From: Thuidium tamariscinum
Taxonomy: Eukaryota > Streptophyta > Bryopsida > Hypnales > Thuidiaceae
NCBI GenBank assembly: GCA_947034885.2
Contig: OX344754.2
Location: 25,169,369 to 25,233,368 of the forward strand
Reading direction: 5' to 3'
Length of the DNA: 64,000 bases
In this document: positions 13,465 to 57,444 of the stretch, one piece after another
Layout of the letters: every line of letters begins with the position of its first letter
How positions within the stretch are numbered: the stretch's first letter is position 1
The notes under the pieces: model-generated
Seen by the model: only the letters and a program-made list of their open reading frames with translations
What the model was told of the DNA's origin: nothing
Database searches by the model: none
Translations under genes and position numbers: made by a program

Positions 13465-13476
13465 GTCGGATCCGAC
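13465..13476. repeat. GTCGGATCCGAC palindrome 3' of B2 (left)
   Basis: This is the 12-bp core downstream of the B2 stop. The counterpart in the right copy is at 38364-38375. In both, one flank extends with TTCCG while the opposite flank is not complementary. Confidence 0.85.
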
Positions 13477-13972: not shown

Positions 13973-14003
13973 GGTCAACTCAAATTTTTTTCAAAATTAA
14001 TTT

Positions 14004-15655: not shown

Positions 15656-15784
15656 CTTTCTAAGCTGACGTGTCAACCCAAAAAAATCCCACTACTTTGA
15701 AAAATGGAGCCATCCGGTCCGCCTCGCCCGTCCATCCGGGACGTCCGGTGACCTTGACTCGTCCGTTATGACAACTCTGACCCC

Positions 15785-29038: not shown

Positions 29039-31132
29039 ATGGATACCGAAATTGAAGAGGTGAAGCAAAAGATCAGTGAACTAGAGCAAAAGATCAGTGA
29101 AGCAGAGCAAGAGATCAAAGATGTGGAAGGACGACTGACGAAGGCTGCCCTTTCCGATGTCGCTTACTGGCGGTCAAAGGAGAAGCAACTGTGGACAAAG
29201 GAGAAGCAACTGCGGACAGAGAAGAAGCAACTGCGGTCAAAGGAGAAGCAACTGCGGAGAGAGAAAATGCTGCTGCTCAAGGCTGATATTTCAGGTGAAA
29301 TCACTTGTCCTAACACTTACTGCATTATCCACTTGACTATATCCAATTCTTCCCTTTGGCTAGGGTTCCTATTAGTATCTCGTCCGGTTCATATTCTTGG
29401 GGAGGGTTTAGTTCATAGTTATAGAATTAGGGTTAGCATAGGAGTAGCACCTCCTACCGGTGTAATTCTCCTTCTTAACTTGGTAGCTTAATCAATACCT
29501 TAAGCCCTGAAGCATGCATTCTTACAGGCTCCTGCTCCTCGTATGTTTTTGACAGGGATGGGTATGGAGAAACGAGTAGATGAATCGGAAGCTCTCCCGG
29601 ATCGGAAGATTAGGCGTAAGATGGCATACACGACTTCCATTCCAGTGGAGGACACTGACGCGGAGATCTTGTGGAAGAATGCAGTTATGGATATAGTTCC
29701 TTGTTCTATAGTGTCTGTTGACGACTTGCTCGATCCAGAAAGGCCGCTGGTGGCAGATTTGAGATATCTGGAGCTGCTGCGTGTTGGAAGGACCATATCG
29801 CTACGCGATATTGTTGACATGAAGAACAGTCGGAAGGCGAAGGAGCATGATTTGGAGAGATGTTATTACGGCCTTGCCCTAACTATAATGCAGGCTTCCT
29901 TTGAAGGGCAGCAGGACGTTTGTGTAGTGTCTGAAGATCACACGAAAGGTGACGGTGCACGGGGAGACCTGCGGCTTTATGTCAACGGTAAGGAGTGTCC
30001 TTCAGAGATGAAGGCTGTAAATGGCTCATCAAATCCATCGACTGATCCGACAGGAATTCATAACAACAAGGCCGCGTTTGGCAAGCTCCTCAAGATAATT
30101 TGGAGCAAGTTTGTCAACTGTGATGGTGGATCTCAAACTTTCATTTGCACATTCCTGAATCGGATTGAGTGCCTCTGGTTTGTGAAGTTCGAATTTGAAG
30201 GGGAAAAGCTGAAAACAGTGGAAGTTGCGCCTGAGATTCCAGAGAAAGGTAGGCCGGCACGTGCGGTGATATGCGGTAAACTCGATGACATCATAGACAT
30301 TTCTCCAGTTAATCGAGTTGATACGTTGGCCGACTTGTTGGATTTAGAATTGCCACTTGGTTTTAAGTACATGACCAGGTACATAGATACTTTGTGCCGG
30401 ATCAGGGATGTGCCATTAACCGATGTTGTCTTCAAGATGCGTAGTGGTGAATGCTTAGACATGAAGGGAGCAAGGATCATTGCTAGGGGTGGGAAATCTC
30501 TAATCCTTCAAGTGGGAGCCGAAAATGCAGTGGTCAAGGTTGGGCCTCGTGAGTGCATTGATGTGGAAATTAGCATCCACAAACTAGTGGATCACCATGT
30601 CCAGAATATTAGATATATGGTGGATGGTGTAGCTGGGTCTGTAGAGGGAGCGGGGAAGCTAGGTTTCATCAAGCTGCAAGGCCTTGGCAGATTCGTTTCC
30701 GACATTTTGTGGGACAAACTTGGAGAATACTGGACATCGATGGCGAGAGCTCTATCTGGGCTACATGCACGCAAGGTTCTGCATCGGGATATCAAGCCAG
30801 ACAATATGTTATTCATTGGTAAGCAGCTGGTTTTAAATGATTTCGATGTGAGTTGCCCTTCCTATGATTTTCTGAAGGTGTTGCAGTATGTGGGGACTGC
30901 ACCGTATAGGTCATTTTTTTGGAAGAAGGGAGAGGCATTCGTACCTGCAGATGATTGGGTTTCTTTAGGTAGGTCCTTTGTATCGTTACTCCAATTGCCG
31001 GAAGGGTATGATAACTTGGATTGTCTAGTTTCTCACCCGAAAATCCCCGAGGACATGAGAGAGAAGTTAACCGCTGCTATGAAATCTGCGGCAGCACGAG
31101 AGACGGGGTTTCTGGATTCTGTGAGACAGTGA
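29039..31132 (+). CDS. Coiled-coil / PD-(D/E)XK nuclease / protein kinase fusion (Crinkler-type effector-like)
   Basis: Two exons, 29039-29294 and 29556-31132, are joined by a GT-AG phase-1 intron and give ~610 aa. Exon 1 is a charged coiled coil with repeated KEKQLR units, a signature seen before the nuclease in Crinkler-type (CR) proteins. Residues ~223-238 read GDLRLYVNGKECPSEMK, fitting the D...ExK core of PD-(D/E)XK nucleases. The C-terminal half is a kinase: Lys in AVVKVG, catalytic loop VLHRDIKPDNML (H495-R-D), LNDFDVS in place of DFG, then DDWVSLGRSF. CR proteins of this architecture are known to have arisen from selfish elements and to act as nuclear effectors or conflict proteins. 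The role here is inferred. The frame is intact, with no neighbours of related function. Confidence 0.75.
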
Positions 31133-35213: not shown

Positions 35214-37774
35214 ATGAAGGTGAGCAGCTTTTCTTTTCATAGTTGAAGTCTTTTTACACAATTGAAATCTGTTTGGAATTTCATTGTGCTTTTGAGCTCA
35301 ATTGTTGGAATTTTGCTGTGGAGCTCTGTCTTTGGTGTCAATGTTGCGTTGTTTTCATGAGCGGTCTTGAGAACTGAGGAAATTTTGTAAAGTGAATTCA
35401 TATATGTAGGTGATGTTGTTAGATTTGTCGCATTCTGAGCTGGTCGAGTTGGTCTTCTGTGAATTTTTGGCAGCGTCATAATCAGCCTAATGGAGGCGAG
35501 ACTTCTGAAGGCTTGCATCAGTCAAAGGCCCGTCGGACATCGCCTGCGGGACGGAGAGTTAGTGATGAGGAAGGGTTGGGGGATCTCGATTTGAATGCTA
35601 CTCCTCTAGGATTCGACCTCAATGCTCCTGTGGAAGAGGAGGAACTCTTGCAATCGAACAGTGATTGGGTGAGTGTACATCAAGATGTCGAGAGCAAGCC
35701 TGACATTGCCGAGGCAGCGCGATTAAATCCTCTCCCGTCAGAAGTTACATCACTTGATCACGCAGAGGTGGAAGATGTGCCTCTCGTAGGCCAGGCCAGT
35801 GTGCAGGTGTTGATTAAGTCGGAGGAGGTCTATGAACCTCGTCAACCAATCCCTGGTGAAGATTATTGTTTCTCTGCCCTATCCGATAAGATTTGCAATC
35901 TTCTCTTGATACCGTTCCAGATTGTACACACTACCTAGTATCGAGTTTAGATTGCAACTTATAAAGGTTGTTTGAAACTTGAAAGGCATGCCTATATCTC
36001 TGGCCCACATGTTTTAACACTAGATGAATAATTCTGGATGTTTAAGATGTTTGTTGCTCTTAGATCTCAGTTTATTACGACGATGATATAATTGGTTTGT
36101 CAGTATTCAAAGATTTTTGTTTGCTTTTTAGTTTGAATTGATCTCTCAGTTGCGCTTTAATTCCATCCTTTTGTATGGGGAAGCAGATACCGTTGATCAT
36201 AGTCCGAAAGAGGGAGAGGGATCAGATCAAGGGGAGTCCCGGTTTGTGAAAGTAGAGGAAGTCGAGGACCTAGAGGAGAAACCCCCAGTTGTAGTTCCAA
36301 CGGTTCTCTGTCGGCCATTTGAGTCTGTATCCTTTCATTTACATCGAGGATCTAGCTTTCTAGGAATAATTAGGCATCAGAAAATCCACGACAATGGTCT
36401 TAACTCTTTAACACCCAAATTCTATTTTGAAATTTTGCACAATTTTGTTGTAGGATTATTATTTGAAGGTTTTATTTAAAGATTCAAAAGCATTCATTAC
36501 TTTGGATGAATGAGAATTTACTTGGACAAAACATTTCCCTGAAGCTCTCTGTTCATCGTTCACAATATGGACTTCGGAGCACTCAGACTTACATAACATC
36601 CTCTCTCCTTGCTTTATTTATTCATTCATTTATTTATTTGTGCCATATCTTAACCATATATGCTACAGTTGAGCATCACCGCTGCTGATGAAGGTACGAA
36701 TATCTTGGTTACTTAATCTCTTCATGCATATGTACTGGTTGTTGCACGGTCATTTTAATGCCATTTTCTACAAACTACTTCGAGTCGATTTGTGTCCACT
36801 GTCTTTTGTTGTCTTGGGCAGGGGTTGCTGAAAATATCCCCTTCGTGTTTGTTTCCAGATTTAGAAATCTTGAGATCTGTGTGGAGCGCATGGCAGCAGG
36901 AAGATGCAGAGGTTTTAGATATGACAATGGCAGACTCCTTAGAGGAACTAGGAAAACATGCTTTGAGTCCTAATCGGTATCTCCTTCTGAGTTCTATGTA
37001 TGTATCCAAGAGACTTCCGGAAGCCTTTTGCTTACCTCGAACATTCAAGGTGATCCCTTATTGCTCGTTGTTTCTAATATCCTTGAAGGTCCTGGAGGTT
37101 TTCAACGAAGAGATACACATAAATCAGTTAACATCTTCGATTCCAATTGCTCTATAGGTTCTTTATTGAATTCTTTTTCGTGAAAGTTCTCTGTAGGGTG
37201 TGCCTTTCCTGTCCTATTCTTAGGCGGTTGCCTTCCTCTCTTTCTAAAACTTTATACCTCAAATGGTACAGGTCTTGATTTCTTTCTTGGAATCTGCGGC
37301 GGTGCAAACAGTGGTGAAGCGTCAAAGTTTGCTGCCAATATTGGCATGCAAACTCCTCTTTCGAGCTTTGCAGGAGAATCTGATTGGCCCATTGAGTTTG
37401 TGCAGGTTCGTCATCCGAACTGGAGTATAAATCTATAGACACCTAATGCTTTTCTGTCATTGGAGTGCTGATCAATACGAAATACTTTAATTCACATTCA
37501 ATTTAGTTAGGCATTTCTTGGTTCAAAAACTGTTTGGTGGTTTGGGGTTTAGGAAACAAAAGTTTGCTTTTAGGATGTATGAGGGTATAGTTGATGGAGA
37601 GGTTTTCAGAAATTTGTTTGTGTCGATCGCGTCTGATATCGAAGTGGAAGGGGATGACTTTATGTTGGAATCTATTCTGTTGCATGTTTTAAATTCCCTT
37701 TGTAGACCTCTGTAGATATTAATAAGGTTACCCTCTGTTTTGCGGTTGTGGACTATCCACGATGCCATTCTTTG
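35214..37774 (+). pseudogene. Host gene, 5' part, interrupted by the transposon (EAR-motif protein)
   Basis: This is a multi-exon plant gene. Supportable coding exons are ATGAAG (35214-35219), 35474-35855, 36187-36326, ~36669-36693 or longer, 36822-37049, ~37272-37400 and ~37509-37720. A last exon beginning near 37725 is cut at 37774. The protein has DLNATP and DLNAP, matching EAR repression motifs, then acidic, Lys/Glu-rich segments and a helical region (LPILACKLLFRALQENLIG). I do not recognise the family. The exon sequence ending at 37774 continues in frame at 57445 once the element and one target copy are removed, so the gene was intact before insertion. Exon joins around 36693 and 37720 are uncertain. 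Confidence 0.55.
37765..37774. repeat. Target site duplication, left side of right element
   Basis: CCATTCTTTG lies immediately before the terminal CAGGGTTGC, and the same 10 bp follow the other end at 57435-57444. Ten bases falls in the 8-11-bp range of Mutator elements. Confidence 0.9.
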
Positions 37775-37845
37775 CAGGGTTGCTAGCAGGCGAGCGGGGG
37801 AGCAGGAGCTTGTGAGCCTGTGAGCCTGTGAGCGGGAAATTTATT
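37775..37845 (+). repeat. Terminal inverted repeat, B2-side end of right element
   Basis: It starts CAGGGTTGCTAGCAGGCGAG, followed by GAGCAGGAGC and three GTGAGC repeats. It is nearly identical to 14065-14004 on the reverse strand. Confidence 0.88.
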
Positions 37846-37867
37846 TTAGAAAAAATTTGAGCTGACC

Positions 37868-38041
37868 ACCTATGATCGTGGATTTTGGGGTAACAAAAAT
37901 TAGAGTTTAGTACCTATGATCGTGGACTTTCAACGTTTAGGCGACGAAGAAGATATGATGTCTATTTCAAAGATGTGACTACAGAAGTCACTTTTTGTTT
38001 TCTTCTTCATTTTCGGGTTTGCATACACCTATGATCATGGA
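37868..38041. repeat. Subterminal repeats of right element (3 copies)
   Basis: ACCTATGATCRTGGA occurs at 37868-37882, 37912-37926 and 38027-38041. A diverged version, TCCACGGTTATAGGA, occurs near the opposite end at about 57230. Confidence 0.7.
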
Positions 38042-38363
38042 CATTGTATACACAAGAGTAGGCATATAAAATCTAATTGTGAGAACCAAAGCACTTAGGT
38101 TTATATTGTCGATTAGCTGTAATTTAGAATGTTAAATCTTTTTTTACAGAGATAAATTAAGGAATGTGAAGGCAAAATGAAAACAGCAAAGAACATCTCA
38201 TAAATACCCAAACCTTGAAATCACAAAAGGCATCAATTTGAAATACTCTAATTTGATGCAACTCATTCACTAAATAAGTCAATCTAGGTGTTGTTGAAAG
38301 GTTGGAATAATTTTGAGATGTATAATGAAGAGAAAGAATTGGATGGTCAATATGTAAGGGTTT

Positions 38364-38375
38364 GTCGGATCCGAC
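38364..38375. repeat. GTCGGATCCGAC palindrome 3' of B2 (right)
   Basis: This is the 12-bp core in the B2 downstream region, equivalent to 13465-13476. Confidence 0.85.
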
Positions 38376-38611
38376 GGAATTGTACGTGTTACCTTCTTGC
38401 CTCAAAATTTATTTATTGAGTTTTTTTTGGTGTAGGTTTTGGGAGAACTAGCAAGAGCCATTGCCTTAGATGTTTTCAAAACAAAAATCAAATAAATAGA
38501 AAGAGAAATTTGAGACTCCCAAAAGTAGCCATAAAACACACAAATCCAATCCAAATAAAATCCAAATAATACACAATAGTAAGATTCAAGAGATTAGTCA
38601 ATCTCAAGAAT

Positions 38612-41600
38612 CTAAGTGGCTGTGGACTCAGTCACTGAATCTGACCCTGTAGAGGACTCTGAGGACTCCCGTCCCTCAGATGCAGAAGCATCTATAAACT
38701 GTAAGACATTGAGGGCGTAAGTGTCTTTGCGTCGTTTTGATTTGGAACAACCAAAATTTGCAAAGGCACTTGCCATCTGCTCTGCATACGGTGGTAGCTC
38801 GAAAGGCTTCTCAGGACTAACGACAAGCCTTTGATTTTGTTCCATGACCTCTCTCAAGATCAATCCACAACCTCTGCAAAAATGGAAGACATTATATTAG
38901 TCTTTGCAAATGTGATATGAAGAAAAATAATAAAGAATGAAAGAAGTTTCCACTTACTTACTGGATTTTCCCTTGCGAACAAACTTGCGAGGCACAATAG
39001 GCGCGTCTTGCACATCCACTGTCAAGTCTACTGTTCTCTCGGGGGTTGGAGCCACTGCCATTGAAGATGATGACTTCTTCATGGGCTTCAAAATGGCATT
39101 GAAAACATCTTTGTCCCCCTCAAATGCTAGAATGTTGCGGCCAGTTCCTCTACAAGCCAAAATGCAAGCACCTAGGGCATTCATGTAATGAAAATGTGTT
39201 AGAGAGGTGACAAAATTGTGACAATGACATAGAAGTGTGAAATATAAAAATTCAAGACAAACCTGTGGATGCCGTGCAGTCCATTATGACATCGCCTTCA
39301 TTGCTTGTGGCTTCAAGGAGGAGGGTGAAGAACCTCGGGTCTTTTTCACGTGGGCCTCTCCATGGCTTCTTGCCATTCATGGAGATGTCATCTGCATGCA
39401 TGTAATTCATGAGCATGTCATCATTCTCCACATCCACCCCAGCCTTCTTCATCATCTCAGTACGCTTGAAAGAAAATTTGGATTCGCCTTTTGCTTTGAG
39501 GTCCTTGACAAGGAGAGTGACTCCAAACTTCTGTGTCTGCAACATATATGACACAAAACATTAGAGATCAATGAATAGAATTTTAAAAGAAATAGGTTAC
39601 AAAAACTGAAGCATCTGTACTGAAATTACCGTCTTTGTGGTGTCCGTTGGCGAGGTGAGATGCATGCGGTTCATGCCTAGCCAGTCCTTCTTCTTCTTGA
39701 AGTCAAATGCTTCGCAAACTCCTGCTAGATCTTCCCTGGATGCAATGCTGAAGGAGTGAAACACAATGATGCATCCATCATCGTGTAGATGCTCAACTGC
39801 AAAGGTGCATGCGGATTGCAAAGCATTCGCTTCTAAATCCGCATTCCAATTTGGCACCTCCCTCGACGTAAGAGAAATGCCTGGCACAGGCAAGTTCTCT
39901 GGACAGTCAATGAAGATGACATCAACACCAGCCCTAGAATTGGCCACACCTTCAAATATGCGAGTTTTGCCCACTGCCATCTGCAAAAACACATTTCAAT
40001 AGAATTTCAATATATTAGAATTGCATACTTCTCTACCCTTCAAAGCAAATTCTTAATATTTAGTACAACATTAGGAATTTTAGGGTCATTTAAATAAAAG
40101 TTTGAGCTGAAAAAGAAGTTACATTTGTCAAAATGTTCAACAATTTCTAGAGAAAAAAAAAACATATGAAAGTATGAAATGTTGAGTAGGAAAAAAACAA
40201 AAAACAAAGTGGTTTAGGTGATTCCGTCGGATCCGACGGAATTGTAAATTCTGCCTTGTTGTCTTACTAATTCTTTCAAATACAAAAATCCTTCAATACA
40301 AAATATAATTGTGGAGTAGAGAGAAATTTTTCTTCCATGTTTCATTATAGCAACTTTGGTGTTTAGCATTCATATCATTGACAATAAGTAAAATAAATTT
40401 GAGCAAAGATGTTTGAAGAGATCACCTGAACCAAGTACTTCAAGACCTCGTCGTAGGCACCCTGTCTTTTGTCCTCCATATCCATGGCGATGTCCTCAAT
40501 GCAAATATTAAGGATTAAATCCTCAGTCTCTGGCACATCATCGTCGGAGAGGACCATGGCTTGAGTGACTCGTGAAATGACATCTTCAGTGAGCTGTGAG
40601 ATGGTGACTTTCCTTGGTACTCCACCTTGTGTTTGATCCACAGTGGAGGAAGCTAAGACTTGCCCTTTTTCTTCCACTTTCTTCTTTCCCTTGGCCTTAG
40701 TCTTCTCTTCCTTCTCCTTCTCTGCTTCTTTCTCCGCCTTCTCGGCCTCTTTCTCCGCCTTCTTTGCTGATTTCTCCGCCTACTTTTTCTCCTTGGCCTC
40801 CATGATGAGTTGATTCTTCACTTCTTTCTTTCGGTCCAGTGCATCCCTCTTGTTGATGGCCCTCTTCCTGGCATCATCATCCATGCCGATGAACTCGTCA
40901 ACATCCTCCAAATCTACTACCCCCTTGCCCTCCAATGATGCCCTTAGCTTAGCCTCCGAATTATGGGTGAACTCCAGTGTGCAGTCCAAGTACCAACCCG
41001 CGCCAGAGAGATGAGCAGTAGTGTAGGTACGTAATTGATGTGGGTTGAACATGCATGAAGTCGAGTTGCGGTCGAGGAAGCGTGGAAGGAATTGAGGGAG
41101 GTCCAGTTTTGCAATGGCCCCCTTTGCTTCAAGCTCTAACTTGAAGTACCTGTAATTCAATTATAATGAGTTATATGGAGCACTGTTCAATCTCAAAATG
41201 AAAGAGTAAGAGCAAAATATATCATGGAAGTTGTAAATTGCAGTCCTTTGAAGGGTGGAAAAGTAGCCAAGACAATACGAATTCAAGATTTATAATGAAG
41301 AAGAAGATGCTATAGAATTTCCATTATTAAAAAGTATACAATGATGCCACCAAATTCCAAGTAGTAAAGAAAATGACATACCGATAAAGGACTCTGCGCA
41401 CCACAGCGTTAGAGCCTTCGTGAGATGAAAAAGTTTGGCCCCTCTTGAAGTACTTCGAGCCCTTGAAGTAATTCATGAAGCCATGTTCCCAAATCTTCTG
41501 CCTCCATCCTTCAATGTACTCTCGTAGCCGCTCTGGTTCTGGTTTTACGTTGTAGTCGATGGAAAGGTTGTCTTCCTTTACAATTTTGTCCAAGAACTCC

Positions 41601-43311
41601 ACTGCAGCATCTTCTATCTGAAAAATGGGATATAGTCAAGAAGTTCAGTTGTATTAACAAATATTTAAATGAAAACAACTACCACCTGTTTTGTTATTCA
41701 ATGAAAGGAATTAGATATTGAACACTTACCCCAGCGTACCAAGTGCACTTCACCAGAAATTGAGGAAGTAAGAGTTCGGAGACAGGTTTTGGTGGCAACT
41801 TCCTTGATTCGCGGTTTGGGGTAGAAGAGTTCCACCATTGAAGTATCTTTGTCTTGTGCTTTGCAGTCATCTTGCAGGTGGCGACCAACTGGAGCTTCTC
41901 CAAAGTCATTTCAGGCACCTCGTAGTTGCCCCAATGCTTTTCCACCTACAAGAAGATTTCAGTTAGTTTTTCAATACGGATTTGAACTGACTTTTGAAGA
42001 ATTTAAGTGAAGATGGAGACTAATTACTGAATTGTACCTCTTTAAGGAAGTCTTCTCCGTTTGCTGGGTTGGCCACCGCTAGCAATTTGAACATCTTGAC
42101 CATAGCTGCCTTTGTTCGTTCCCTTGCTCCCAACCTCATTGCTTCGGCTGCCTGCAGTGGTACACTTCCAGTCTCTTGTGTGGCCTCCATGTACCTTCTT
42201 ACAGCTGCATCTGCAGCTTGTGAAATTTCTTGCTGCACATGAAACCCAGATAGATGTGAAGTCAATATGGACATTGATGATTCTTAAAAATAAAAATGTA
42301 TTTATCAAAAACAAAATGAAGGAGCTTACCCGGAAGATGAAAGATGTGAAGACCTCGAGTTGAATTGAGTACCACTTTTTAGTGACCTTGTGCTCAAGGC
42401 ACCTCTTCCTCTCTGCAGGCCTCAGTAGAGCTGCAAACTTTGCTATGGGAAGCATCCCGTACTTCTGAATTTGGTACAAGGTGTGTACCAAGTTCGTCTT
42501 CACGTGGGAGTCTTCTACAGACCTGCAAACCATTCAATGCAACATAAGCCGAAGATCTAAACTAGCTCCAAGAAAGTACAACATTCAAATTGAATATTTT
42601 TTTGAAAAATAAAAACAATAAGAAAGAAAAAACTTACTTGTTTACGTCATGCATGACTTGCATGACAAGTTCATTCCGACCTTTCGTGTCTAACATGATA
42701 GAATCGACACTGCAGTGTTCCTCCGAATGCTTAGAGATATAGTTCATCCACGCAATTCGTCTGTGGTTCCCATCGCAAATAAAAATCTTCAAGTTCTTCA
42801 AGAACTGAAGCTCTGGCTTGGACTCAAACTTCTGTTTGAAGACTTCATTCTTCTCCTTCCAAATGGGGTCCCAACTATCCATCTCCTGTTGGGTGAACTC
42901 TTCAGTGTTCCCATCTTCGTTTGTAGCTGACACATAGAATACCGCGGCACCATCTCGGTACCCTCCACCTGCAAACTCTTGCTCTAGCTGCAGGATATCA
43001 GATGCCAATGCCGGTCTGACCATTGGCATTGCCACAAGCCTGCACAATGGTATGTGCATTCGAAATAACTCCTCGGGCTTCATTCGAAGTTGCCCCAAAA
43101 GCTTCACAACATCACCTTTTTGAATGTGCCGGAGTTCTTCTTCTGACATCACCTTCTCCTCCTCACGGTCTTGAATGACAATCTCCATGTCTTCTTCTCC
43201 TTCATCTCCATCCCCTTCTCCTTGTTCAATCTCTGGCTGCCTTTGGTTTTGAGAGGATGGCGTTTCGAATATTGTCTCTACTTCTGTGGTTTTGGCGGGG
43301 GAGATGTCCAT
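38612..43311 (-). CDS. Gene B2, right copy: ParB-like domain plus N6/N4 DNA-methyltransferase-like protein (one nonsense codon)
   Basis: There are ten exons: 43311-42638, 42522-42330, 42232-42038, 41945-41730, 41617-41382, 41149-40426, 39980-39630, 39536-39263, 39171-38958 and 38873-38612. They give 1,112 codons plus stop, with all phases consistent. The only lesion is TAG at codon 628 (40782-40780), where the left copy has CAG. Residues ~176-195 (FICDGNHRRIAWMNY) match the ParB-like nuclease fold. Exon 6 carries a Lys/Glu tract. Exon 7 has DVIFIDCPENLPVPG, in the place of methyltransferase motif IV. The exon 8/9 junction has DCTASTGACILA...GRNILAFEGD, resembling motif I. Motif IV before I is the beta-class order. 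ParB-methyltransferase fusions are known in phages. DPPY is replaced by DCPE, so catalysis is uncertain. Confidence 0.8.
40221..40242. repeat. 22-bp perfect palindrome in B2 intron 6 (right)
   Basis: It is symmetric around GGATCC with core GTCGGATCCGAC at 40226-40237. The left counterpart (11602-11613) has one arm mutated. Confidence 0.9.
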
Positions 43312-43535
43312 CTAGAAGAACAAAGTTCAAGTTTAATAAATGGAAGGTTTAGGGTAGACAAAAAAAATATGAATTGCTTGACCAAAGTGATGGATCAATG
43401 AATAGGAAAATGGTTTACTTCAAGTGGAATATTGTACTTGCAATTGGATTGTCAAATACATCTACAAAAATGATGTAGTTTGAATAAAGATAAAGTCTGG
43501 CCTGGTATATAGTGTTTTTTAAGACAAAACTCCAC

Positions 43536-46500
43536 CTAGTCTATGATTTGAACATCCTCATCCTCATCCTCATTAGAGCTGAGGATGATGATTTCATCTG
43601 ACTGAAACAGGTCCATATTTGACACCTCACTCTCCCCTGTGTACAAATCAAAAAACTCTACACTGCTGGAGTTGGAGGGCTCATAATCAGAGGGATACTC
43701 CTCCTCCTCACTGAAAGATGAGAACCACGGGCCATTGCCCCTAGTCCCACTAAGCACAGTAGTTTCGAATGCATCAACGGCTCGCTCTGCAGCATCCATG
43801 ACGTCATCAAAACTCACCAAATTTTGGTTTGCATCACTTTGGTCAAGTGAAATGGACACCCCTGGCTGTGGCCACATCTGGGGCTGGGATGGTCCATCAA
43901 CGTCCATATCAGGGATAGTCTGCTTCACAGGACTCTCTTCCTCAGAAGATAAAACCTTCTGGCGTTTGCCCCGTCCTTGGCCGCCCTGGACAACAAAAGA
44001 TTATGTTTAGCATTCATTTAGGGTACATGATTCTAAGCAACTGAAACAAGGCCTACATCAAAATGCCCAAGATCTATTCAAATTCAAAGTGAATACATTT
44101 AACACTTCAAATCTTGCCATCAGAGTCTACTCATCTGGAATCATAATAAGTAAGACACAATTAACTTCAGGGTTATGAAGGGTCATGATTAGTATACCTG
44201 TTTCTTCAATCCTTCATTGTCCTTTGCAACGGTCGTATCTATAGCTCCGGTCTGAACCAAAAACAAATTATATAAGTCCAAAAATAATCAAATAAATATT
44301 ATTTAAATAAATAAATAAAAATCAATCATTATGAAATAGTAAAAACTTAGGGTAGTATGAGGTGACTTGGAAAACCAAGTCGGATCCGACTTGGTTTTCC
44401 AAGTCACCTCATACTACCCTAAGTTTTCACTGTTTTTTAGGAAATATCCTCAAATTCTGTTCAGCACCAAGTGTAAGCAAGAAAATTCACACATATTCTG
44501 TGAAATGCAATCTCTTCAGAGCATAGAGTGGAAAACCGAGGTCTTCTTCGAATATTGAAAGACTCCAATGCAAGTACTGTGAACTAAAGAAGATAATACT
44601 GAGAGATTCAAAATCAAATACAGGATCTTTAGATGTAATCCGAGTCTGAAGAAAGTAACTAGACCGGATATGTTCAACAAACGATTTTGCATCACGAGAA
44701 AAAAAAAGGTCAGTGCCGTGGGTAGCACGAGGCCCGCCGTAAAACCAAGTCGGATCCGACTTGGTTTTGCGACGTGCCTCATGCTACCCATGGCACTGAC
44801 TGTTTTTTGAATGTATCTGAAATTAAACGAGAAAGACACATCTCAAAAGAACCACTAAAACTGATCAACGCACAAGGCAGCAGGAGTTTGGCAGTCCCCA
44901 GCAGGAGTTCGGCAGGAGTTCGGTAGTTCGGCTTGAAGACATGTTCCTGTTCGTAAGACTCAATTTCGAAATTCAAAATTTTTTTTTAAGAGATCCGATC
45001 CTTGCAATCCGTATGGAGTTTAAAAAATCAGTGAGCCCCGTGGGTAGCACGAGGCCCACGGCAAAACCAAGTCGGATCCGACTTGGTTTTGCGGTGGGCC
45101 TCGTGCTACCCACGAGGCTCACTGCTGAACTGAATCTATTTGGAATCTTACTGATTTCCAAAACACTGAACGTTGTTGATGTAACCGCAACTACCCCGCA
45201 CACCCCAAACTGCATCCCCGAAGTAGATGATACTTGAGTCATTTTTTAGTTTCCACGACTCTGCTTATTAGAAGAAATCAGAAGTTCTTAAAGACTCAAT
45301 GCAAGCGCCGTGATCCTGAAAAGGAAATAGAGAGTCTCTGTGGGTACCACGAGGCCTCGCTTAAAACCAAGTCAGATCCGACTTGGTTTTCAGCTCAGCC
45401 TCATGGTACCCACGGAGTCTCTCATTTTTTGGAAAACCTGCAGACCAGCATGCTCAGCGCGTCCTCAGCGCGTCCTAGACGTCCCCAATGCGGCCCCAGC
45501 GCGTGACGGTCGACCCGCTCTCCCTCTCCCCAGTTCGTGGCGCGTCCGCAGCGCGTGGCACGTCTCCAATGCGTGACGCGTCGAACCGCTCTCCCTCTCC
45601 CCAGTGCGTGGTGCGTCCACAGCTCGCGGCGCGTCCGCAGTGCGCGTGGCGCGACCTTGTCAGAAAACGTGCATCCTTCAGCGTGCTCAGCGCGTCTTCA
45701 GAGCTTCCTCACGCGTCCCCAACGCGTCCTCAGCGTAGCCAGTGCGTGGCGTGTCCATGCAACGCGTGGCACGTCCATGAAGCGCATGGCGCGTTCGCAG
45801 CACGTGGCGCGTCCATGGACTGGACCCGAGCGTGGCGTGTCCGTGTGCGCGGCACGACTCTAAGTCTAACGCGTGACTCCTCTTCAGACCCTGGCGCAGC
45901 GTGTGCACCGTGTGCACAACTTGGCGCAGCTGGACTTACATCGAATTGCAAAAACGAACAACTCGGCTTCATCTAGGACAGGATGAACGCAATGGTGACC
46001 GCAATGGTGCTCACGAGTACAATTGAATTCAAAGTCTGTGAGTTTGAGGTACCTTAGGCTCCGCAGCTTGTCCGACTTGATTCTCAGATTCTCTTGCGCG
46101 GTTGCGGGTCGTCCTCGTCATCTGCATCGATTTCGAGTGAGCTTGAGAAAACTGAGTGGAGTGTGAGTGAGCTTGGTTGTGGATCACTTGAGATTAGTAT
46201 TAGAAATCTGTAATGAAATTCGGGGCTTGGCGCGCTGGCTGCTCCTTCTGTCACTCTCTGCTTTCCAGCGTTTTCAGGAGCAAATAGCAACTTGAAAGGT
46301 GCCTTGGTGCGGGAATCGCCACGATATCCTGAAATTCCTGCTCCAGCGGTGGGTGCGCGCGTGGACAGACTTGGATTCGCAGGAAACCAGGCAGACCACG
46401 AAAGAAATGGCAACTTGCCGGTTGCTGGATCCGTGACTCGAGGAATTTCACGTGATTCTCGAGCTTGGCGATTCGGTATCAGGCTGGGTGATTCATGATC

Positions 46501-47884
46501 TTTGTCTTTTTCTCGGATACTTTTTAGATTTCGACAGTTGGCGTTCAATTTGGTAGGTGAGAATGTTTTGGCAACATTCTTGAACTCGTTGATACTATTT
46601 TCAATAGGAGGATTTTTTGGATTCATGGTGATCACGGCTGTCTAAAACAGTGATTCTGGAATCCCAGATCTTTCCCTTGGAAGCTATAAATGACTTAAAC
46701 CCTTAAAAAAATTTTGAATTTGAGGACCAGAACCTGAAGACTGAAATAGCAGGAACAAGGAACTAGAGATAAGGAAATTAATCAATTTCTTCCATTTGCT
46801 CATTGGGAATTCTCTCATTTTCAATGAAATTATTTAATTATTATCTTATGAAATAGACGCTGTTGTTTGGTGGATATGTTATTAGTAAGGTAAAGCCATC
46901 TACTGCCTACAAAGAATTGACACCCATCTCCATACTGAAAGGATACAGATACTTCCAATCGAGGCTAAAAGACTTATTCAATCAAAGTTTGGAATGTACT
47001 TTTACCCAATTTTCGTGGTTACTTCTAACAAGGTCATGACACATGTCCAAAAGCATCATGAAGTAAGAGAAAAGTATTTACTTGGAAAAAAACATTGACT
47101 GTGATCAAAATTATAAGACTCAGAACATTGGCTGTAGACTCAAAGGAATTATTAGACTTTCAGAAAAGGAAGATATCTCATTATTGGTAATAAGAGTTTG
47201 AAAAATTTGCAATATCCATGTTTTCTACCTTGCTATGTCAAATTTTTTTTTATCTAGGCTCAAATTTTGGTACAATGTGTTCTTGGGTTGATTAAGTGAT
47301 TGGATATAGGTGGCTAATCCTTATCTAAACTTCTTTCTCAACACAAAGCATCAATCAGAATTTCTTAGATCATACAGATTGAAGTTTCTAAGTTATGTTT
47401 CTACTCTCCTATTTTCACTGTAAGCAATATCCTTGTGTTGCTTATAAAGTTGGCATTCAGACATCATAAAATATGTTCTTCAAAACTAAGATAGTACATT
47501 GTTCAAAAGAATGGCTAATCTCTATTTACTTTCAATAATTGCATATCCTTCAATGGCTCTAAATAACAAAAATTGCAATGACCACTTGCAAATCTCTCAA
47601 TGGCTTGCTATACACTGAATTGATTTAGTGCTTACAACTTTGACTACAAGGAATAGAAATGTTTGAAGGGGTGCGCGTAATAGACAAACCTTGGATGTTT
47701 CTTGGGACTGTGTGCCTTCGTCCTCGTGATGCATCTCCGTTGGGTACTCCTGCACAAGATCTGCGTTTTCGCCTTCAATGTTCACTGAATGTTCACCCGC
47801 TTCTATCTCAAAACTAAGAGACTTCTGCGACCCACTTAGTTCACTACGACCTCGCTTTGAGAGTATCTTTTTTGCACGAGTCAT
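43536..47884 (-). CDS. Gene B1, right copy: short charged protein with SIM-like tail
   Basis: The exons are 47884-47690 (first exon a) or 46121-46053 (first exon b), then 44251-44198 and 43985-43536. All are phase 0 with GT-AG junctions, and exon lengths equal those of the left copy (195, 69, 54 and 450 nt). The frame has no stops. The N-terminus is basic (MTRAKK via exon a or MTRTTRNRARE via exon b), the middle has FDDVMDAAERAVDAF, and the end EIIILSSNEDEDEDVQIID resembles tandem SUMO-interaction motifs. Exon 3 differs strongly from the left copy between residues ~60 and 90. The family is unknown. It lies immediately upstream of B2, and its long first intron holds the hairpin array. Confidence 0.65.
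44342..44427. repeat. Perfect 86-bp palindrome, hairpin R1 (B1 intron)
   Basis: All 43 pairs match around centre 44384/44385. The core is GTCGGATCCGAC with flanking AAAACCAA and TTGGTTTT. It is followed by CTGTTTTTTAGG. Confidence 0.95.
44709..44800. repeat. 92-bp near-perfect palindrome, hairpin R2 (B1 intron)
   Basis: The outer arms GTCAGTGCC and GGCACTGAC pair, and inner GTGGGTAGCACGAGGC pairs with GCCTCATGCTACCCAT with few mismatches. The core is at 44749-44760, followed by TGTTTTTTG. Confidence 0.92.
45029..45124. repeat. 96-bp near-perfect palindrome, hairpin R3 (B1 intron)
   Basis: CAGTGAGCC pairs with GGCTCACTG, and GTGGGTAGCACGAGGCCCAC pairs almost fully with its partner arm. The core is at 45071-45082. 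Confidence 0.93.
45331..45422. repeat. 92-bp palindrome, hairpin R4 (B1 intron)
   Basis: The outer arms around GTGGGTACCACGAGGC and GCCTCATGGTACCCAC pair. The core is the single-mismatch variant GTCAGATCCGAC at 45371-45382. It is followed by CATTTTTTGG. Confidence 0.9.
45440..45930. repeat. CpG-rich minisatellite (CAGCGCGTCC / GCGTGGCGCGTCC type)
   Basis: About 500 bp of short, irregular tandem words such as CAGCGCGTCCTC and GCGTGGCGCGTCC lie inside the B1 intron between exon b and hairpin R4. The long ORFs across it, in several frames, are composition artefacts. Confidence 0.8.
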
Positions 47885-48693
47885 CTTGGCTCTCCTCAAA
47901 TCTTTCCTAGAAGAATAGAAAAAGAACCCTGTTTCCTATGACTCTTACTTTGCTCTAGGACAGAGTGTGGAGTGGAATGTTCTACAATCATGAGCTCATC
48001 AAAGATACACCTAATTCTGCTCTACTCACAAACGAGAGATCCACTCCAAGAATAACCCTGAAATGACTCCATCTCTTCCAAGAGTTCCCTAAGTACTTGT
48101 CTTCCTCAACGCCGCCTTTGCACATCTCGGCTTCACGCGTGTCGGATGACTTAACTGTTTCGGCGCCGGCATTTCCAAAATTTGAAAATTGCACTGCCCG
48201 AGGCATCTTGACGAGACAGCGCCGCCAATGTCAGTCGAAGTACAGATTTGTGTATTAAAAGAAATCTGTTGGAGCCGTTTCAAATGAGTCGCCAAGATAA
48301 TAATCTTATTATATGCCACAGCTCCAATGACTGAATATCTTAGATTAGAAAGTTCTATAAGATAATTTTAAAATTTAGCCCCTAATTAGTACATGAAGAA
48401 TTGCCGGTGCTTCAACTAATTACACCGTCGTAAAGATAGTATAGGACTGTACTATATACTTTGTATTCACTAATGCTAATGTGACGGTTACTTTTGAAAT
48501 GATTGTTTAGCTTCATAGACCCTCTATTGTATACACCATCAATCCTCAAGCCTAAGCCATATTACCCTAAACCACCATCATTTACAAGTAATGAATGCAC
48601 CCTTGAGAACCCTATATAAACCCATATGTTTTTTATTTCACTATGTAAAGCAATTTTACTCTTCTTTGGGTCTTACTCTAGATTGTGAGCGAC
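47885..48693. promoter_or_regulatory. Divergent promoter region between B1 and gene A (right copy)
   Basis: TATATAAA at 48613-48620 lies ~80 nt upstream of the gene A ATG (48694). The region carries one unit of the 57-bp repeat that is tripled in the left copy. An in-frame GTG at 48685 is not taken as the start because ATG 48694 matches the left copy ATG at 3326. Confidence 0.6.
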
Positions 48694-51600
48694 ATGGCAA
48701 GCATTCGCGTAGACGGTCATTCGGTTCCTTTAGTGTTTCCTTTAGACCTAGGAGGTCATGCTACTGTATTCAGCCATTTGCTTCATGTTCGATTCAAGTT
48801 TGTTGAATCATCCATCTATGTTGAAGAGGAGCAACGTTCTGAGTCTGGTGATTTACTTCAGTCAATCCCGCTTTCAAAATGTCTCTCTGATGAAGGTCCC
48901 TGTTGGTATTTAGGTCAGGGGAACTACAGGGCTTATGGTCTCCCTTTAACTATATTAGCTTCATCCGTTGAGATAGCTAGTCGCCAATCTGATAATAGTA
49001 CTGTGAACAGACCTTCTGGACCTGAAAGTACTAAGCCTACTATACAAGTAGGATGCTCTCCAGTATTTGTACAGAATGAGATGTCTGTTGAAGCAAATGT
49101 AGAGTTGTTAGGGACTATTGTTGAACTCTCCAGTGAGTCTGAAGGGAAGTCTCCTTCCTTAACTCTTGAGATGAAACCTTCCTTGGTGAAACACGAGTCC
49201 AACGACATCAAACTTTCGAACTCCATACAAAATACCTCCACCAGTACTTCAGAACAACGTACCTTTTCACAACAAGTTCATAGTCCTAGTGTAGTTAGTA
49301 CAACAAGTATAATGAAATGCTTGAAGGGACTTTCTAGGCTTCACCGTTCACGAAATGAACTATCAACATTAGATATGAACTCCATCAAGCACCAACGAGT
49401 AGAGTTTCTACCACCCACTTACAATGGAGATGCTATCTTTGAACTTCCGCCTTGTCGGGCCTCTTCTTCTTCATCTGCAGCAAAGAACTTGGAGGGAATG
49501 GACAAGCGGTACGATGGACACGGGTGGTGCAAGCTAGTGACAACAAACATCCACAACTCGGACAATTTGAAGTTTCGTAAGTCCTTCTGCGCTGGCCATC
49601 TGATTTGCGAAAACCCTAGCTGCGAGTACTTGTATAGGACTTCTAGGAAAAATGAAATAGAATGGACGGGTTCTACAGTATTTCCTTTTGCAGTAGGAGT
49701 TTCTCCACCAATTGATTGCAAACTAGTTTGTAAAGTCTGCAAAACAGTTCCTACATGTCTTAGCACTTGTGTTGCTAGAATTTACTACTGCTATAGTGAT
49801 AACTCAAATATGACTAGGGCTGCTATTCACCTAGGAAACCACTCTCACCCGGTAGCAAAAGGCATGTATAGAGATTCTGCAAAAGAGATTACCGAACTCA
49901 TAGCAGAACAAGTTGCCAAAACCCCTTCCGCTACAAACTCTGCCATAGCCTTATCTGCTAGCAAAGACTTCCTTACAAACCACCTTTTTCACCACGGAGA
50001 AGGAGAGAAGAAGATATTGAAGGGAGAGGAAATGGAAGAGGTCATGGATCGCTTTCAGTTTCTAAGTAGTCCTAGTATACGGAATATCATCTCCTCATTC
50101 CGCTCAAACAACCAAGGAGGGGTCATTGACAACATCATGACCATGAAGAAGGAATCAAAGTTCGAGTTCATACACGATAGTGTTTTTCCAGGCCAAGGCA
50201 AAGAGAAGGTTTACATCTTCAAAATGCTCACTGAAGGGCCTGGAAGTGGAGTGGACTTGGTAAGGCGCATGCAACCTGAAGGTGATCTACAGAATGCGTG
50301 GATGATGTTCGACCACGTGAAGCGCGTTTGGGACTGGACCACCATGGCATGCCACGTGTACGACTCTCAGTACAAGAAGGTCATGACCATTGCAGTGTGC
50401 GATATGCAATCAGAAGATACAGAGATTCAAGTACAATTCTGGAGGTCACTGAATGCTATAATGGAGAAACACGGAGTTGCGAAGCCAAATTTTAAAGGAT
50501 TTATGGCAGATAGCGCAATGGCCAATTGGAATGCAGTGCGCATTGTATATGGGAGTGGCTCAGCAGATGACATTATGAAGAATCGTGAGAGAACATGCCT
50601 ATTGCATTGGAGTAATTCTCTTCAGAAGCACACCCAGAAACACATCAAGCAAGGACTACAACATCAACACATTGCACTATGTAAGCAATACAAAGAATCC
50701 AAGACTTTGGATGAAGCGGAGGTGCACTATCTTGCAATTCGGTCATGGTGGTTATCATCTGGAGCTACAACAGAAGACTCACTTCATCACTTGGAGCATT
50801 GGTTGGCATTTTGGCATTTTCGTTATTTACAGTGGGGAGGCTTCATGACAATGGTATGTGTCCATGTGAATCTTATTTTGATTTATAAATTATATTTTGT
50901 ATTCTTATTTAATTAGACAATTGTTCACTTGAATAATACAGAGGGAATGATTCTTTTTACTTTCAATGTCTTTGTAAAAAAATTCAAGAACACATAATTT
51001 TCCAATGCTTTTAAAGATATTTTATAGTAAAAATTGGAAAGACTTTAAAAGGAAGTAGTATAGGGAATCAGGGAGGCATTTGTTTCATCCAATGGCTATA
51101 AGTATTTTTTTACAAATCTTATCGTAAGGCATATGTGGAAATACTAACTGCTTGAACTTTCAATCATTAAGAATTTTTATTATATTATAAATTGATATTA
51201 TATGTAAAATCCGTCGGATCCGACGGATTCCCTCACAACCTCCACATTTAGAAAAATATAATGTTACAAGGTTCAAAATTGGTTGCCATTAAAGCACTCT
51301 TTGATGGTACTCTATTTCCAATTTTTTTCTCAAGTCAGATATTTGGAAATCCCAAACCCATAATACTATTTAATTCTTCTTTGTGATTGTACTTCCCTAA
51401 ACCCTAAACCATACTCAAATTCTTAGAAGTATAGAGAGCAATGGTCAATATAATTCTTATAATAATAGCAAATTGTATTTTGATTCATGTTTGCCTGTGG
51501 TTGGAATTCTAGGGTCTTACTTTAGAAGAGATGATAGACATGCCTTTTTGTAATTTGTCGGAAACGATCCACAACAAGTGGCTACAAATGTTGGGGAAAA

Positions 51601-52900
51601 AAGGAAACAACTTATTCGATGCCACTTGTGATGATAGTATTCGGGCTTGGATGCAAATGACAAACTACCGAGCATACCTTAGAGGACATGCATGTGGGTC
51701 AGGACCATCAAAGGGAGAATTGAGGTTGAGGGCGGCTAGGCGTAGTGGGTGTCCAAAAAAAATTGCTGAGGCATTGAATACATTGCCAGAAGCACATGGT
51801 GTGGGAACTCGAGTACCTCATCTAGAAGGAGAAGAATTTTTTGGGAGCACAAAGAGGAGGCTTGATGTACCTATTGGTGATGCTGGAGATTCACATAGAC
51901 CAGACAAAGTCAACTTCTCGCAACCGCGGGTCCGAACTAGGTCTACAAAGGTTGTAGAAAATTCAATGGAAGGCACTGGAAATTGCAATGAAGTCAATAC
52001 CTCCAATTATGTGACGGTAGCATTTGAAACCGATTGTGACACATCCAAGTGGCACATTGCAAGGATCAGCCACAAATCAAATGCAAGATGCTGGGCTCAA
52101 CAACGGACATCAAACATCAAGTGTACCTCAAGGATTGCCAAGGGTGGAAAAGGAACCCCTGCTCCTACTTATCGTGGTAGGAAAGAAGAGTATGGAACTA
52201 AGCGCCCGGTGGTCGTGGATTTTTGGTTTTGTTGGGATGACATTGAACGATGTGTGAAAGGTACAAAGAGGAAGTGGGTCATTGATAGGCCAGAGCTGCC
52301 TGAAGTTTGGCCTATTCTAATGGGACCAATTTGAATCGTGAAGAAACCTTACTGCTACAACATGCAGGCTTCCGTCTTCAAGAACGGCCTACATTATCGC
52401 CACGTGAACTTTTTTCCATGTCTAAGATTTTTGAGCCTATCTTCTTCACTCAACCATGTCCACCAAATGCAGATGTGCACCCTACTGTGAGGAACAACCG
52501 AACAATCAAAAGACTTGCAAATCCTCCAACCGTAGAACAACGCAACAAATGGGAAAGTGCTTCAAATATTATAGGGGAAATTCTAGGAGTGACCCTCGTA
52601 CCTCTTCCTGGACTTGGTGCAATAGTGGTGCTACAGACTGGAGTGGAGTCCAACAAAAACGTATATCGAGTTACTATGGGTACATTCCCTACATGCACAT
52701 GCCCTGACTTTGTCAATATGATAGTATCTGCTATGGGAGGCCGAGCACAATACGTGAATTGTAAGCACTTGTATTATTTGTATAGGTATTTCTGCAAGAT
52801 GGATATTCATGATGACAAATTCATTCATGCACCTAGTTATAGCTTTAATGACTTGAAGCTACTCCTAGTTCGGGCACGGATCATCATTATTTCAAAGTAG
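48694..52900 (+). CDS. Gene A, right copy: Mutator-like DDE transposase with zinc finger and SWIM motif
   Basis: Exon 1 is 48694-50853, a GT-AG phase-0 intron spans 50854-51512, and exon 2 starts at 51513. The frame runs to a stop at 52334, but the conserved C-terminus continues in another frame to 52900, so a frameshift or unseen small intron lies near 52300-52334. Residues ~299-386 hold Cys/His pairs (CENPSCEYL, CKVCK, GNHSHPV) like GCM/WRKY-type fingers of MULEs. The DDE core shows MMFDHV (D540) and MADSAMANW (D606), then CLLHWSNSL. CTC...CKH near 52694-52768 fits a SWIM finger. Family knowledge says such proteins bind the terminal repeats and catalyse transposition. Length is ~1,180 aa if the frame is rejoined. 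Confidence 0.85.
51208..51229. repeat. 22-bp perfect palindrome (gene A intron, right)
   Basis: It is identical to 795-816 of the left copy, with core GTCGGATCCGAC, in an intron whose remaining sequence has drifted. Confidence 0.9.
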
Positions 52901-52923
52901 ATATGATTAGTTTCTTGGAGTGT

Positions 52924-52928
52924 AGTAC
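52924..52928. repeat. Target duplication of solo LTR (left)
   Basis: AGTAC precedes TGTGGGAACC, and the same 5 bp follow the LTR at 56921-56925. Confidence 0.88.
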
Positions 52929-55900: not shown

Positions 55901-56920
55901 TTTGTAAGAGTTGCTCTGAACAAGTCTCGACTCTGGATTGGTATGCCGTGCAATGCTAGAACCATTGGATAGTGCGAGGTAGCTGGGTTTGTAGGCGTTT
56001 GGATGAGGTGTCTCCCCCAGACTTTGTCTGAATCCGGTTTCGGGAAATTGAAGTGATTTGGTTGAGGCTACTAGTGTATTAGGATTGAAGTCTAGCTGCT
56101 GCAGTCACTTGGAGGCTTCTGTGTGGGAAAGCCGCTCTTAGATTGGGTGTGTTCTGCTAGGAGAGTGGGCGCATGCCAATTGACGTGTTGTTGAGGTCCT
56201 ACTATAACCGGAAGTGAGGGATGTGCAGACAGTTAGGATCCCCTAGTTATCTGGCTCCTAGATTAAGCCTTAGGAACTGAGTTTGGGTGAGTCTGTCATT
56301 GTAGTAATGTGGGGTTTGTAGGGGTTTCCTGAGTGACCTGCTAGTTGGGATTGCAATCCGGATTAGTTGTGAGGAGGAACTTGCAGCCTATTTCTTTTAT
56401 GTCTTTTGTTATTTTCCTCTTTTAGTGGAACTCCATTCACTATAATCCTGAGGAGGGTAGGATTCAACGCATCCTTCCTAAATGCCAACCGCGGACCCCT
56501 CTAATACAGAGGCTAAACTTCATTTGTTACTTGAGTGATTGGATCCGGAAACCGGATCCGGAAGAGGTACAGAGTTTGGGCACTCCTTTCGGTTCCTAAT
56601 CCGCCCAGTCGGATACTGTGAGTCCGGATAGGGGAAGGTACAGAGTTTGGGCACTCCCCCCTGTTTGGAGGTTGTTGTGAGAGTGGTAAAGTATGTATGA
56701 ATGGTGAGAAAGGCAATCTAAAGGAATGCGGATGTTGTGAGGAAGTTTCCGATTAGGAATCCGGTTACTGTTGTCTTGGGGTTGTTTTCCGCATCCTGTT
56801 ATTCCGGATATCTTGAGGAATCTACGTAAAATCCTGTGGGAACGATACACGAGTCATTTGAACGGTGTTAACGCCAAATTAACACCTACAGACGGATTTG
56901 TGCTTCCTTGTGCTACGACA
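52929..56920 (+). mobile_element. Solo LTR (3,992 bp) with internal ORF, inserted downstream of gene A
   Basis: It starts TGTGGGAACCTAGAAT and ends GTGCTACGACA, flanked by the 5-bp duplication AGTAC. The termini match the Gypsy LTR at 18518-22430. There is no internal domain, so it is a solo LTR left by LTR-LTR recombination. It lies only ~30 bp beyond the gene A stop codon. Confidence 0.88.
53617..55533 (+). pseudogene. LTR-internal ORF, copy 2 (one in-frame stop)
   Basis: A 639-codon frame is interrupted by TAA at 54376-54378. The N-terminal domain matches the copy at 19067 (RPWNLKDEDMVREVM, RPTRITTTIANTIFGALSGD, LSPFLFHLYHSLDLL). A coiled-coil middle is followed by an acidic Ser/Glu/Asp tract and the basic end SPKKRMKK. 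The order of conserved domain, coiled coil, acidic tract and basic tail is kept in all copies although the sequence is well diverged, which suggests function in active relatives. The start ATG is chosen by alignment with copy 1. Confidence 0.75.
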
Positions 56921-56925
56921 AGTAC

Positions 56926-57369
56926 ATTCATGTTGTATTCTTTACATGTGCTACAAATGAAATTATGAAGTGATGGAGCCCAATTATGAATATTGACCGT
57001 CTTTGGAGTACATTTATATTATTCGAATTTCTTGTTCTATCCATTTTTTTCAGTTGCCCATTTTCATTCCATCCAATCGAAAAATTCCTAAACCCTAGAA
57101 CAAGGCACATGAGTCTTTTGTATTTGAAGTGTTTGCCTTGTTTTTTCCCCAAACCCCCAAATCCTAAATCCCAAAACTTAAATGTATAGATGATATTCTT
57201 AATGGTCCAAAAATATGAGATTTCACGAAAATCCACGGTTATAGGAGACACGGTCATGGGTAGCAAAATTTACTATAAATAGTAATTTTTTGTTGAATTT
57301 TGGAAAAAAATCTGATTGAAAAAAAATTCTAGTCCAAATTTCTCAAAAAGAGGCTACTTCATGCTCACC
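56926..57369 (+). other. Non-coding A-side end of right element
   Basis: This ~450 bp between the solo LTR and the terminal repeat is AT-rich, with one diverged subterminal repeat near 57230. It holds the 3' flank of gene A. Confidence 0.5.
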
Positions 57370-57434
57370 GCTCACAAGTTTCCCGCTCGCAGCTCACAGG
57401 CTCACCGCTCCACGCTCGAACGCTAGCGTCGTTG
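57370..57434 (-). repeat. Terminal inverted repeat, A-side end of right element
   Basis: Read inward on the reverse strand it starts CAACGACGCTAGCGTTCGAG, then GAGC, GGTGAGCCTGTGAGC and GAGCGGGAAA, paralleling the opposite end with several mismatches. Confidence 0.82.
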
Positions 57435-57444
57435 CCATTCTTTG
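57435..57444. repeat. Target site duplication, right side of right element
   Basis: CCATTCTTTG repeats 37765-37774. Confidence 0.9.

Follow-up and report, generated by a model that had tools for sequence, protein, structure and literature searches.

Two copies of a DNA transposon in the genome of the moss Thuidium tamariscinum carry a ten-exon gene, here called gene B, and a 12-bp palindrome dispersed through their non-coding DNA, and among relatives of the element elsewhere in the genome the version of this palindrome goes with the clade of the gene B protein. Both copies lie in a stretch of 64,000 nucleotides (the window: assembly GCA_947034885.2, contig OX344754.2, positions 25,169,369 to 25,233,368 of the forward strand), and coordinates below count from its first letter. 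We propose, and would give it an even chance of being right, that gene B encodes an accessory factor of a plant Mutator-like family with terminal inverted repeats (TIRs), which would recognise the family's own copies by sequence-specific DNA binding. We infer that the protein, through one or another of its domains, binds 12-bp palindromes in the introns and intergenic DNA of the element, and each protein clade would read its own version of the palindrome.

The palindrome GTCGGATCCGAC was found at 13 window sites when up to one mismatch was allowed (11 of them exact), where 0.11 would be expected and none of 100 shuffles reached 13. All 13 are inside the two element copies and none falls in a modelled coding exon; they occupy intron 6 of gene B, the DNA 3′ of gene B, the intergenic region and the transposase intron. 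In copy 2 they are located at 38364-38375 (3′ of gene B2), 40226-40237 (intron 6 of gene B2) and 51213-51224 (transposase intron), and within four hairpins at 44334-44435, 44700-44808, 45029-45124 and 45325-45427, of which the first three are centred on GTCGGATCCGAC at 44379, 44749 and 45071 and the fourth on GTCAGATCCGAC at 45371, with one mismatch. In copy 1 they are located at 800-811 (transposase intron), in the intergenic DNA at 6366-7294 (centres at 6398, 6677 and 7250), at 11602-11613 in intron 6 of gene B1 (GTCGGATCCGAG, one mismatch) and at 13465-13476 (3′ of B1). The intergenic palindromes are the centres of hairpins of 76-110 bp, as would suit a purely structural origin, with the palindromes being hairpins, foldback or MITE-like (miniature inverted-repeat transposable element) repeats, or small-RNA sources, and no protein site. 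We consider such an origin improbable, given that the hairpin arms vary between sites while the core is constant, and that the intronic sites and those of the subfamily F1 are alike only in the core and a few bases, their other flanks being unrelated. At the locus L005, for example, seven of nine TCGGNNCCGA sites are exactly CTCGGCGCCGAG amid unrelated flanks. The palindrome core is thus kept while the flanks diverge.

Genome-wide, which here and below refers to the species' own assembly of 363 Mb in 19 contigs, GTCGGATCCGAC occurs 655 times against a single occurrence of the reversed word, and among the 50 matches listed of these 655, all on contig C1, 48 fall into 10 clusters of 2-7 sites and two are isolated. 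A related 24-mer led to four loci in three separate places (L001 overlaps L002), and each of them contains gene B, the neighbouring gene C of the element, or both. The word has the general form N-TCGG-NN-CCGA-N, and CTCGGCGCCGAG is one palindromic version of NTCGGNNCCGAN. In 36 family loci (152 kb) we counted 110 occurrences of TCGGNNCCGA where 0.6 would be expected; many of these loci are near-copies and four overlap, so the occurrences are not independent.

Thirty loci (L005-L034) were brought in by exon 1 of gene B. In the subfamilies F1 to F3, all 11 loci lack GTCGGATCCGAC and carry CTCGGCGCCGAG, exactly in 9 and with one mismatch in 2, whereas GTCGGATCCGAC is found in all 18 loci of F5 (16 exactly, 2 with one mismatch), none of which has CTCGGCGCCGAG; both window copies likewise carry GTCGGATCCGAC. 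On a tree of 33 exon-1 rows this difference is a single split with a support of 98/100, the bootstrap being not fully settled. A further version, CTCGGATCCGAG, picked as a control word, was found at 292 places genome-wide against 4 for the reversed word. Two of the five clusters of 4-7 sites among its matches listed were fetched, and both hold a gene B, of a new subfamily, F7; these loci, L044 and L045, have seven and six copies of CTCGGATCCGAG and no other version. On a tree of 17 rows, of the 35 available, the three words require two changes, which is the least possible, with a warning of long branches. Protein and palindrome correlate strongly, although the number of independent contrasts is small. 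An earlier account of the locus, made from the letters of the window and hereafter called the preliminary description, had suggested that the element's protein may bind its own DNA, and to this the clade-matched palindromes lend strong indirect support.

Alternatively, the transposase or the gene C product could be what binds the palindromes, for end assembly or promoter control, with gene B doing something else and matching them only through joint inheritance. The genes do travel together: gene C is present in all seven loci checked (L001-L004, L044, L045 and L126) and adjoins gene B in L044 and L045 (F7), L126 (F5), L002 and L003, and palindromes are found between the divergent genes as well as in the transposase intron. 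However, they also occur in gene B introns and 3′ of gene B, and the two window transposases have diverged more at synonymous sites than gene B (dS 0.277 against 0.084) while the word is still common to both copies, which is weak evidence against this alternative. We regard it as unlikely.

Several other observations weigh against an address that is read by gene B. When two mismatches are allowed, four extra GTCGGATCCGAC sites appear in the window and all of them lie outside the elements. The subfamily F4 fits poorly, with neither GTCGGATCCGAC nor CTCGGCGCCGAG in the 3.6 kb of L012 and only one GTCGGATCCGAC in the 6.8 kb of the longer L036. Of the 50 CTCGGATCCGAG matches listed, 29 are clustered, 15 are isolated and 6 form three 74-bp pairs, so that this word occurs outside clusters too. 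The clade-word match comes down to about two word changes among many near-copy loci, and the ParB-like domain, considered below, is unconfirmed.

Gene B2 is encoded on the minus strand (43311->38612) in ten exons, which were delimited by splicing of the window sequence and all have GT-AG borders: 43311-42638, 42522-42330, 42232-42038, 41945-41730, 41617-41382, 41149-40426, 39980-39630, 39536-39263, 39171-38958 and 38873-38612. There is one in-frame stop in exon 6. The second copy, gene B1 (8514-13229, plus strand), has the same ten exons, but its exon 1 contains two stops and its exon 3 a 7-bp frameshift; the two regions are 93% identical across 6.2 kb. The preliminary description had reported this exon plan as common to both copies, as our models of B1 and B2 confirm, and had dismissed an assembly chimera on that ground, rightly, because many relatives of gene B also occur elsewhere in the genome. 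Its motifs stand where it put them, with FICDGNHRRIAW in exon 1, IDCPENL in exon 7 and DCTASTG/ACILACRGTGRNILAFEGD across the junction of exons 8 and 9. Its account of exons and motifs thus holds; both window copies are broken, however, and the element is larger than it stated.

Over 1105 codons, B1 and B2 are separated by 56 synonymous and 30 non-synonymous changes, a ratio of non-synonymous to synonymous rates (dN/dS) of 0.139, and the transposase exon gave 0.197 between the window copies (718 codons). Between exons 7-9 of B2 and those of the F5 copy L126, in a comparison that excludes exons 2, 3 and 10, the proportions of synonymous and non-synonymous differences were 0.66 and 0.16 (238 codons), dS being close to saturation. 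The gene B protein is kept functional under purifying selection, whatever its function. Because dS is so much lower in gene B than in the transposase, the two elements seem to have come to share the gene B cassette, or to have exchanged it, at a more recent date. Mutator-like elements (MULEs) often acquire genes (PMC6446971), and gene B might have been taken from the host and be carried along with no role of its own. We find this most improbable: the low dN/dS, the similar gene B exon layout in the subfamilies read (by tblastn) and the palindrome matching all argue against it.

Relatives of gene B are numerous in the moss itself. At least 40 exon-1 places were recorded in its own genome (the best 40 of 2030 first-look candidates, with the Ceratodon protein P0001, introduced below, as query), and the family exceeds these listed places because the window copies B1 and B2 are not among them. 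Identity to P0001 among the matches listed is at most 47% (at most 43% in exon 1), so that P0001 itself is not one of them. Contig C11, which makes up 17.5 of the 363 Mb, holds 16 of the 40 places, an enrichment on one chromosome among best-scoring places that include many near-copies. In a search of about 5.8 billion proteins only two relatives were found, both from Ceratodon purpureus: P0001 (M758_1G295400, a hypothetical protein), found with the exon-1 region as query, and P0002 (KC19_7G101700, 661 aa), found with a two-row profile. A full-length gene B query with evenly spaced words gave none at E 0.001 among 7990 candidates, low-complexity words having probably filled the candidate list. 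P0001 aligns with B2 through the N-terminal, middle and methyltransferase parts, while P0002 differs from gene B in lacking the N-terminal part; both belong to the same protein family as gene B and both match PF01555. Viral contigs held no relative of gene B and none of a Burkholderia plasmid ParB, and in tblastn against phage and plasmid records the matches listed (25 of 264 phage and 15 of 521 plasmid records) were confined to the methyltransferase region and the sequence close beside it.

Exons 7-9 of B2 (38958-39980, minus strand) encode a domain that resembles a permuted amino-methyltransferase, with motif IV (DCPENL, exon 7) ahead of motif I (DCTASTGAC, exons 8-9). PF01555 (N6_N4_Mtase), whose gathering cut-off is 26.7 bits, is matched above cut-off by P0001 (30.4, nearly the whole profile), P0002 (35.0) and the subfamily F1 (27.1), and below it by F2 (26.2) and the window copy B2 (20.5, E 5e-4). 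The best match of gene B to a DNA methyltransferase among PHROG families has an E of 1.9e-6, and Helicobacter DpnA (5hfj) was matched at E 5e-4. The methyltransferase likeness claimed in the preliminary description is therefore borne out by the Ceratodon relatives, F1 and the permuted motifs, the window copy itself staying below cut-off, and a C-terminal part with the amino-methyltransferase fold in permuted order is supported at the level of sequence. An AlphaFold2 model of P0001 had a mean predicted local distance difference test score (pLDDT) of 34, which is too low to read a Rossmann core and was computed from few alignment rows.

In such enzymes motif IV reads [DSN]PP[YFW] and its aromatic residue is used by the enzyme. 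In the Ceratodon proteins the aromatic residue is kept (DTPF and DQPY), in contrast to gene B of Thuidium, where we read DMPE in F1 (L035), F2 (L038) and F3 (L037), and DCPE in F5 (L126) and B2. In F7 the motif is DCQE in L044, and in L045 a stop lies inside it with the E kept; the broken B1 has DCLE. No methyltransferase exon was found in the 6.8 kb of F4. In each of the six subfamilies read in this genome, at one or two copies apiece, glutamate thus stands in place of the catalytic aromatic residue, and motif I of gene B also departs from its usual form. We take catalysis to have been lost or changed in the gene B of this genome because of this glutamate. Since the aromatic residue is lost and yet purifying selection is retained, the C-terminal domain may be expected to have a non-catalytic or altered role, such as holding S-adenosylmethionine or DNA, rather than ordinary N6A or N4C methylation.

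If D-x-P-E were a tolerated variant, gene B could nevertheless be an active amino-methyltransferase (N4C or N6A) that modifies the palindromes or the element and shields it from silencing. The PF01555 matches above cut-off, the motifs retained in Ceratodon, the strong constraint on exons 7-9 and the presence of GATC in two of the three words would all be in keeping with an active enzyme. We find it rather doubtful, given the glutamate in every subfamily read, the departure of motif I and the lack of GATC in CTCGGCGCCGAG. With the aromatic residue lost in every subfamily read, the suggestion that the element may mark its own DNA becomes doubtful as far as marking by methylation is concerned. 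A broader version of the accessory-factor proposal, which we put forward only tentatively, is that an amino-methyltransferase lineage of phage and bacterial type has become a eukaryotic self-address system: with a re-cut active site (D-x-P/Q-E), the protein would read a clade-specific palindrome, in the way that parS is read by ParB or a target site by its modification enzyme, to protect, modify or handle its own copies only, and protein and address would diversify together into recognition groups.

The preliminary description had also assigned a ParB domain to exon 1 (42638-43311, minus strand), which contains the CDGNHRR motif, and this was not confirmed: the domain is ParB-like by motif only. 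Pfam ParB_N matched no gene B member scanned with a limit of E 10 (most matches weaker than 0.1 being removed by the HMMER filters), an 8-row exon-1 profile aligned by hhalign to 78 ParB sequences with a probability of 0.2% against 0.1% for the reversed control, and searches of NCBIfam, PHROG and the PDB with exon 1 turned up no ParB, none of their matches having an E under 0.02. Of five exon-1 queries, two matched DUF1015 along the DGNHR stretch, at an E of about 0.05. DGNHR is present in 30 of the 33 exon-1 rows, the exceptions being L027 and L033 (DGNHK) and L023 (NGNHR), and the setting of the motif (IPLCR, VRPAL, GYxDG, FYVS, CDGNHR) is no more than suggestive of ParB, only the D-G-N-H-R and this setting being alike. 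An AlphaFold2 model of exon 1 reached a pLDDT of 44.7, and the P0001 and exon-1 models used only four and two alignment rows. ParB/parS systems also have dispersed palindromic sites and a motif of the D-G-x-x-R type; gene B differs in having no ParB profile match, and a partition role for it is neither known nor likely. The Dmt protein of phage P1 is no precedent for a fusion of ParB with a methyltransferase, since it consists of D12 plus C5. On the Burkholderia plantarii plasmid bpln_1p (L042), a PF01555 methyltransferase and an annotated ParB-family protein (PF02195, E 0.003) lie about 1.5 kb apart, unfused.

Copy 2 of the transposon extends from 37775 to 57434 and contains gene B2, gene C, the transposase and a nested insertion of long terminal repeat (LTR) type. 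It starts with CAGGGTTGCTAGCAGGCGAGCG and ends with CGCTCGAACGCTAGCGTCGTTG, its two termini are related inverted sequences, and it is flanked by a 10-bp target site duplication, CCATTCTTTG, at 37765-37774 and 57435-57444. BLAST homology between the copies breaks off exactly at 14065 and 37775. Copy 1 (1-14065) has the opposite orientation and its other end is left of the window; its gene B half (7832-14065) is 93% like copy 2 and its transposase half (1-3840) 86%, the middle being diverged. The transposase (48694-52900, plus strand) has exons at 48694-50850 and 51513-52334, with borders set by eye, and a SWIM-like C-terminal open reading frame in another frame at 52304-52900. No Pfam MULE domain was found in it up to E 10, and its weak scores were all below cut-off (SWIM, E 0.10-0.15; Smr, E 0.07-0.17). 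MULE target duplications measure about 8-11 bp. The preliminary description called the element Mutator-like, a name that the 10-bp duplication and the inverted ends favour and that the missing MULE domain and weak SWIM score do not; with reservation, we retain it on the strength of the duplication's length, the inverted termini and a CxC...CxH pattern.

Gene C is represented in copy 2 by an acidic C-terminal open reading frame at 43536-44000 (minus strand), with an upstream exon probably near 47597-47935, and in copy 1 at 7732-8289; the acidic protein has a conserved LVSF-D-DVMDA-ERA stretch. The nested insertion (52929-56920) starts with TGTGGGAACC, ends with CTACGACA and has a 5-bp duplication, AGTAC; no polymerase was recognised by eye among its listed frames of at least 120 aa. 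An inverted pair of 474 bp at 56451-56924 and 63527-64000, 99% alike and 6.6 kb apart, probably represents related LTR parts in opposite orientation. Frames resembling retrotransposon reverse transcriptase, RNase H and integrase were seen by eye beside copy 1 (15758-18073), as were a multi-exon plant-like gene just left of copy 2 (35423-37430), the element lying beside it or in its 3′ part, and a 542-aa open frame with a protein-kinase-like HRDIKPDN stretch at 29504-31132. To judge by the spacing of 24-mer sites on contig C6 near 25.41-25.45 Mb, the window region seems to have a duplicate about 232 kb downstream.

The arrangement recalls the VANC proteins of the Arabidopsis VANDAL transposons. 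VANC21 binds YAGTATTAY, and motifs of this kind are enriched in its family, where VANC21 and VANB21 have them in introns and VANA21 in its upstream DNA; VANC causes a loss of methylation at them (PMC5735166), and related VANCs act on other transposons through other targets (PMC5735166, PMC10398659). Like VANC (see also PMC13317346), gene B belongs to the accessory genes of a MULE-type transposon; in both systems short motifs stand in introns and between genes of the family itself and diverge along with the protein, and the gene B element has a family-specific non-coding motif of its own. VANDAL elements also have further accessory genes, vanB and vanC (PMC6446971). In contrast, DUF1985 and DUF287 are not among the Pfam matches of gene B, its word is a 12-bp palindrome whereas the VANC21 target is YAGTATTAY, and VANDALs are called non-TIR whereas the moss element has inverted ends. 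By analogy with VANC, bound copies would likely escape silencing. Fungal TET/JBP dioxygenases are likewise DNA-modification enzymes carried as cargo by DNA transposons, with a proposed escape from silencing; they belong to another enzyme family and other hosts, and no palindromic address is mentioned in the available parts of PMC12730594. The N4CMT of bdelloid rotifers is also a permuted PF01555 amino-methyltransferase with introns in a eukaryote, but it belongs to the host, carries a chromodomain and deposits N4-methylcytosine at transposons (PMC8885841), while gene B is transposon-borne and lacks the catalytic aromatic residue. Among open-licence PMC papers we found no report of a plant transposon with a protein of ParB or methyltransferase type, nor of such a word. 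We regard the gene B element as a MULE-type element with a putative sequence-specific accessory factor whose protein has none of the known VANC domains.

If this proposal is right, plants would have evolved at least twice a transposon factor that uses a short non-coding word to find its own family, with proteins that have no detected domain in common, and there would be a second system beside VANC in which to see how selfish DNA evades silencing without harm to its host. The three protein-word pairs would be ready for specificity swaps, and the natural series DTPF, DQPY, DMPE, DCPE and DCQE may show how a DNA methyltransferase turns into something else.

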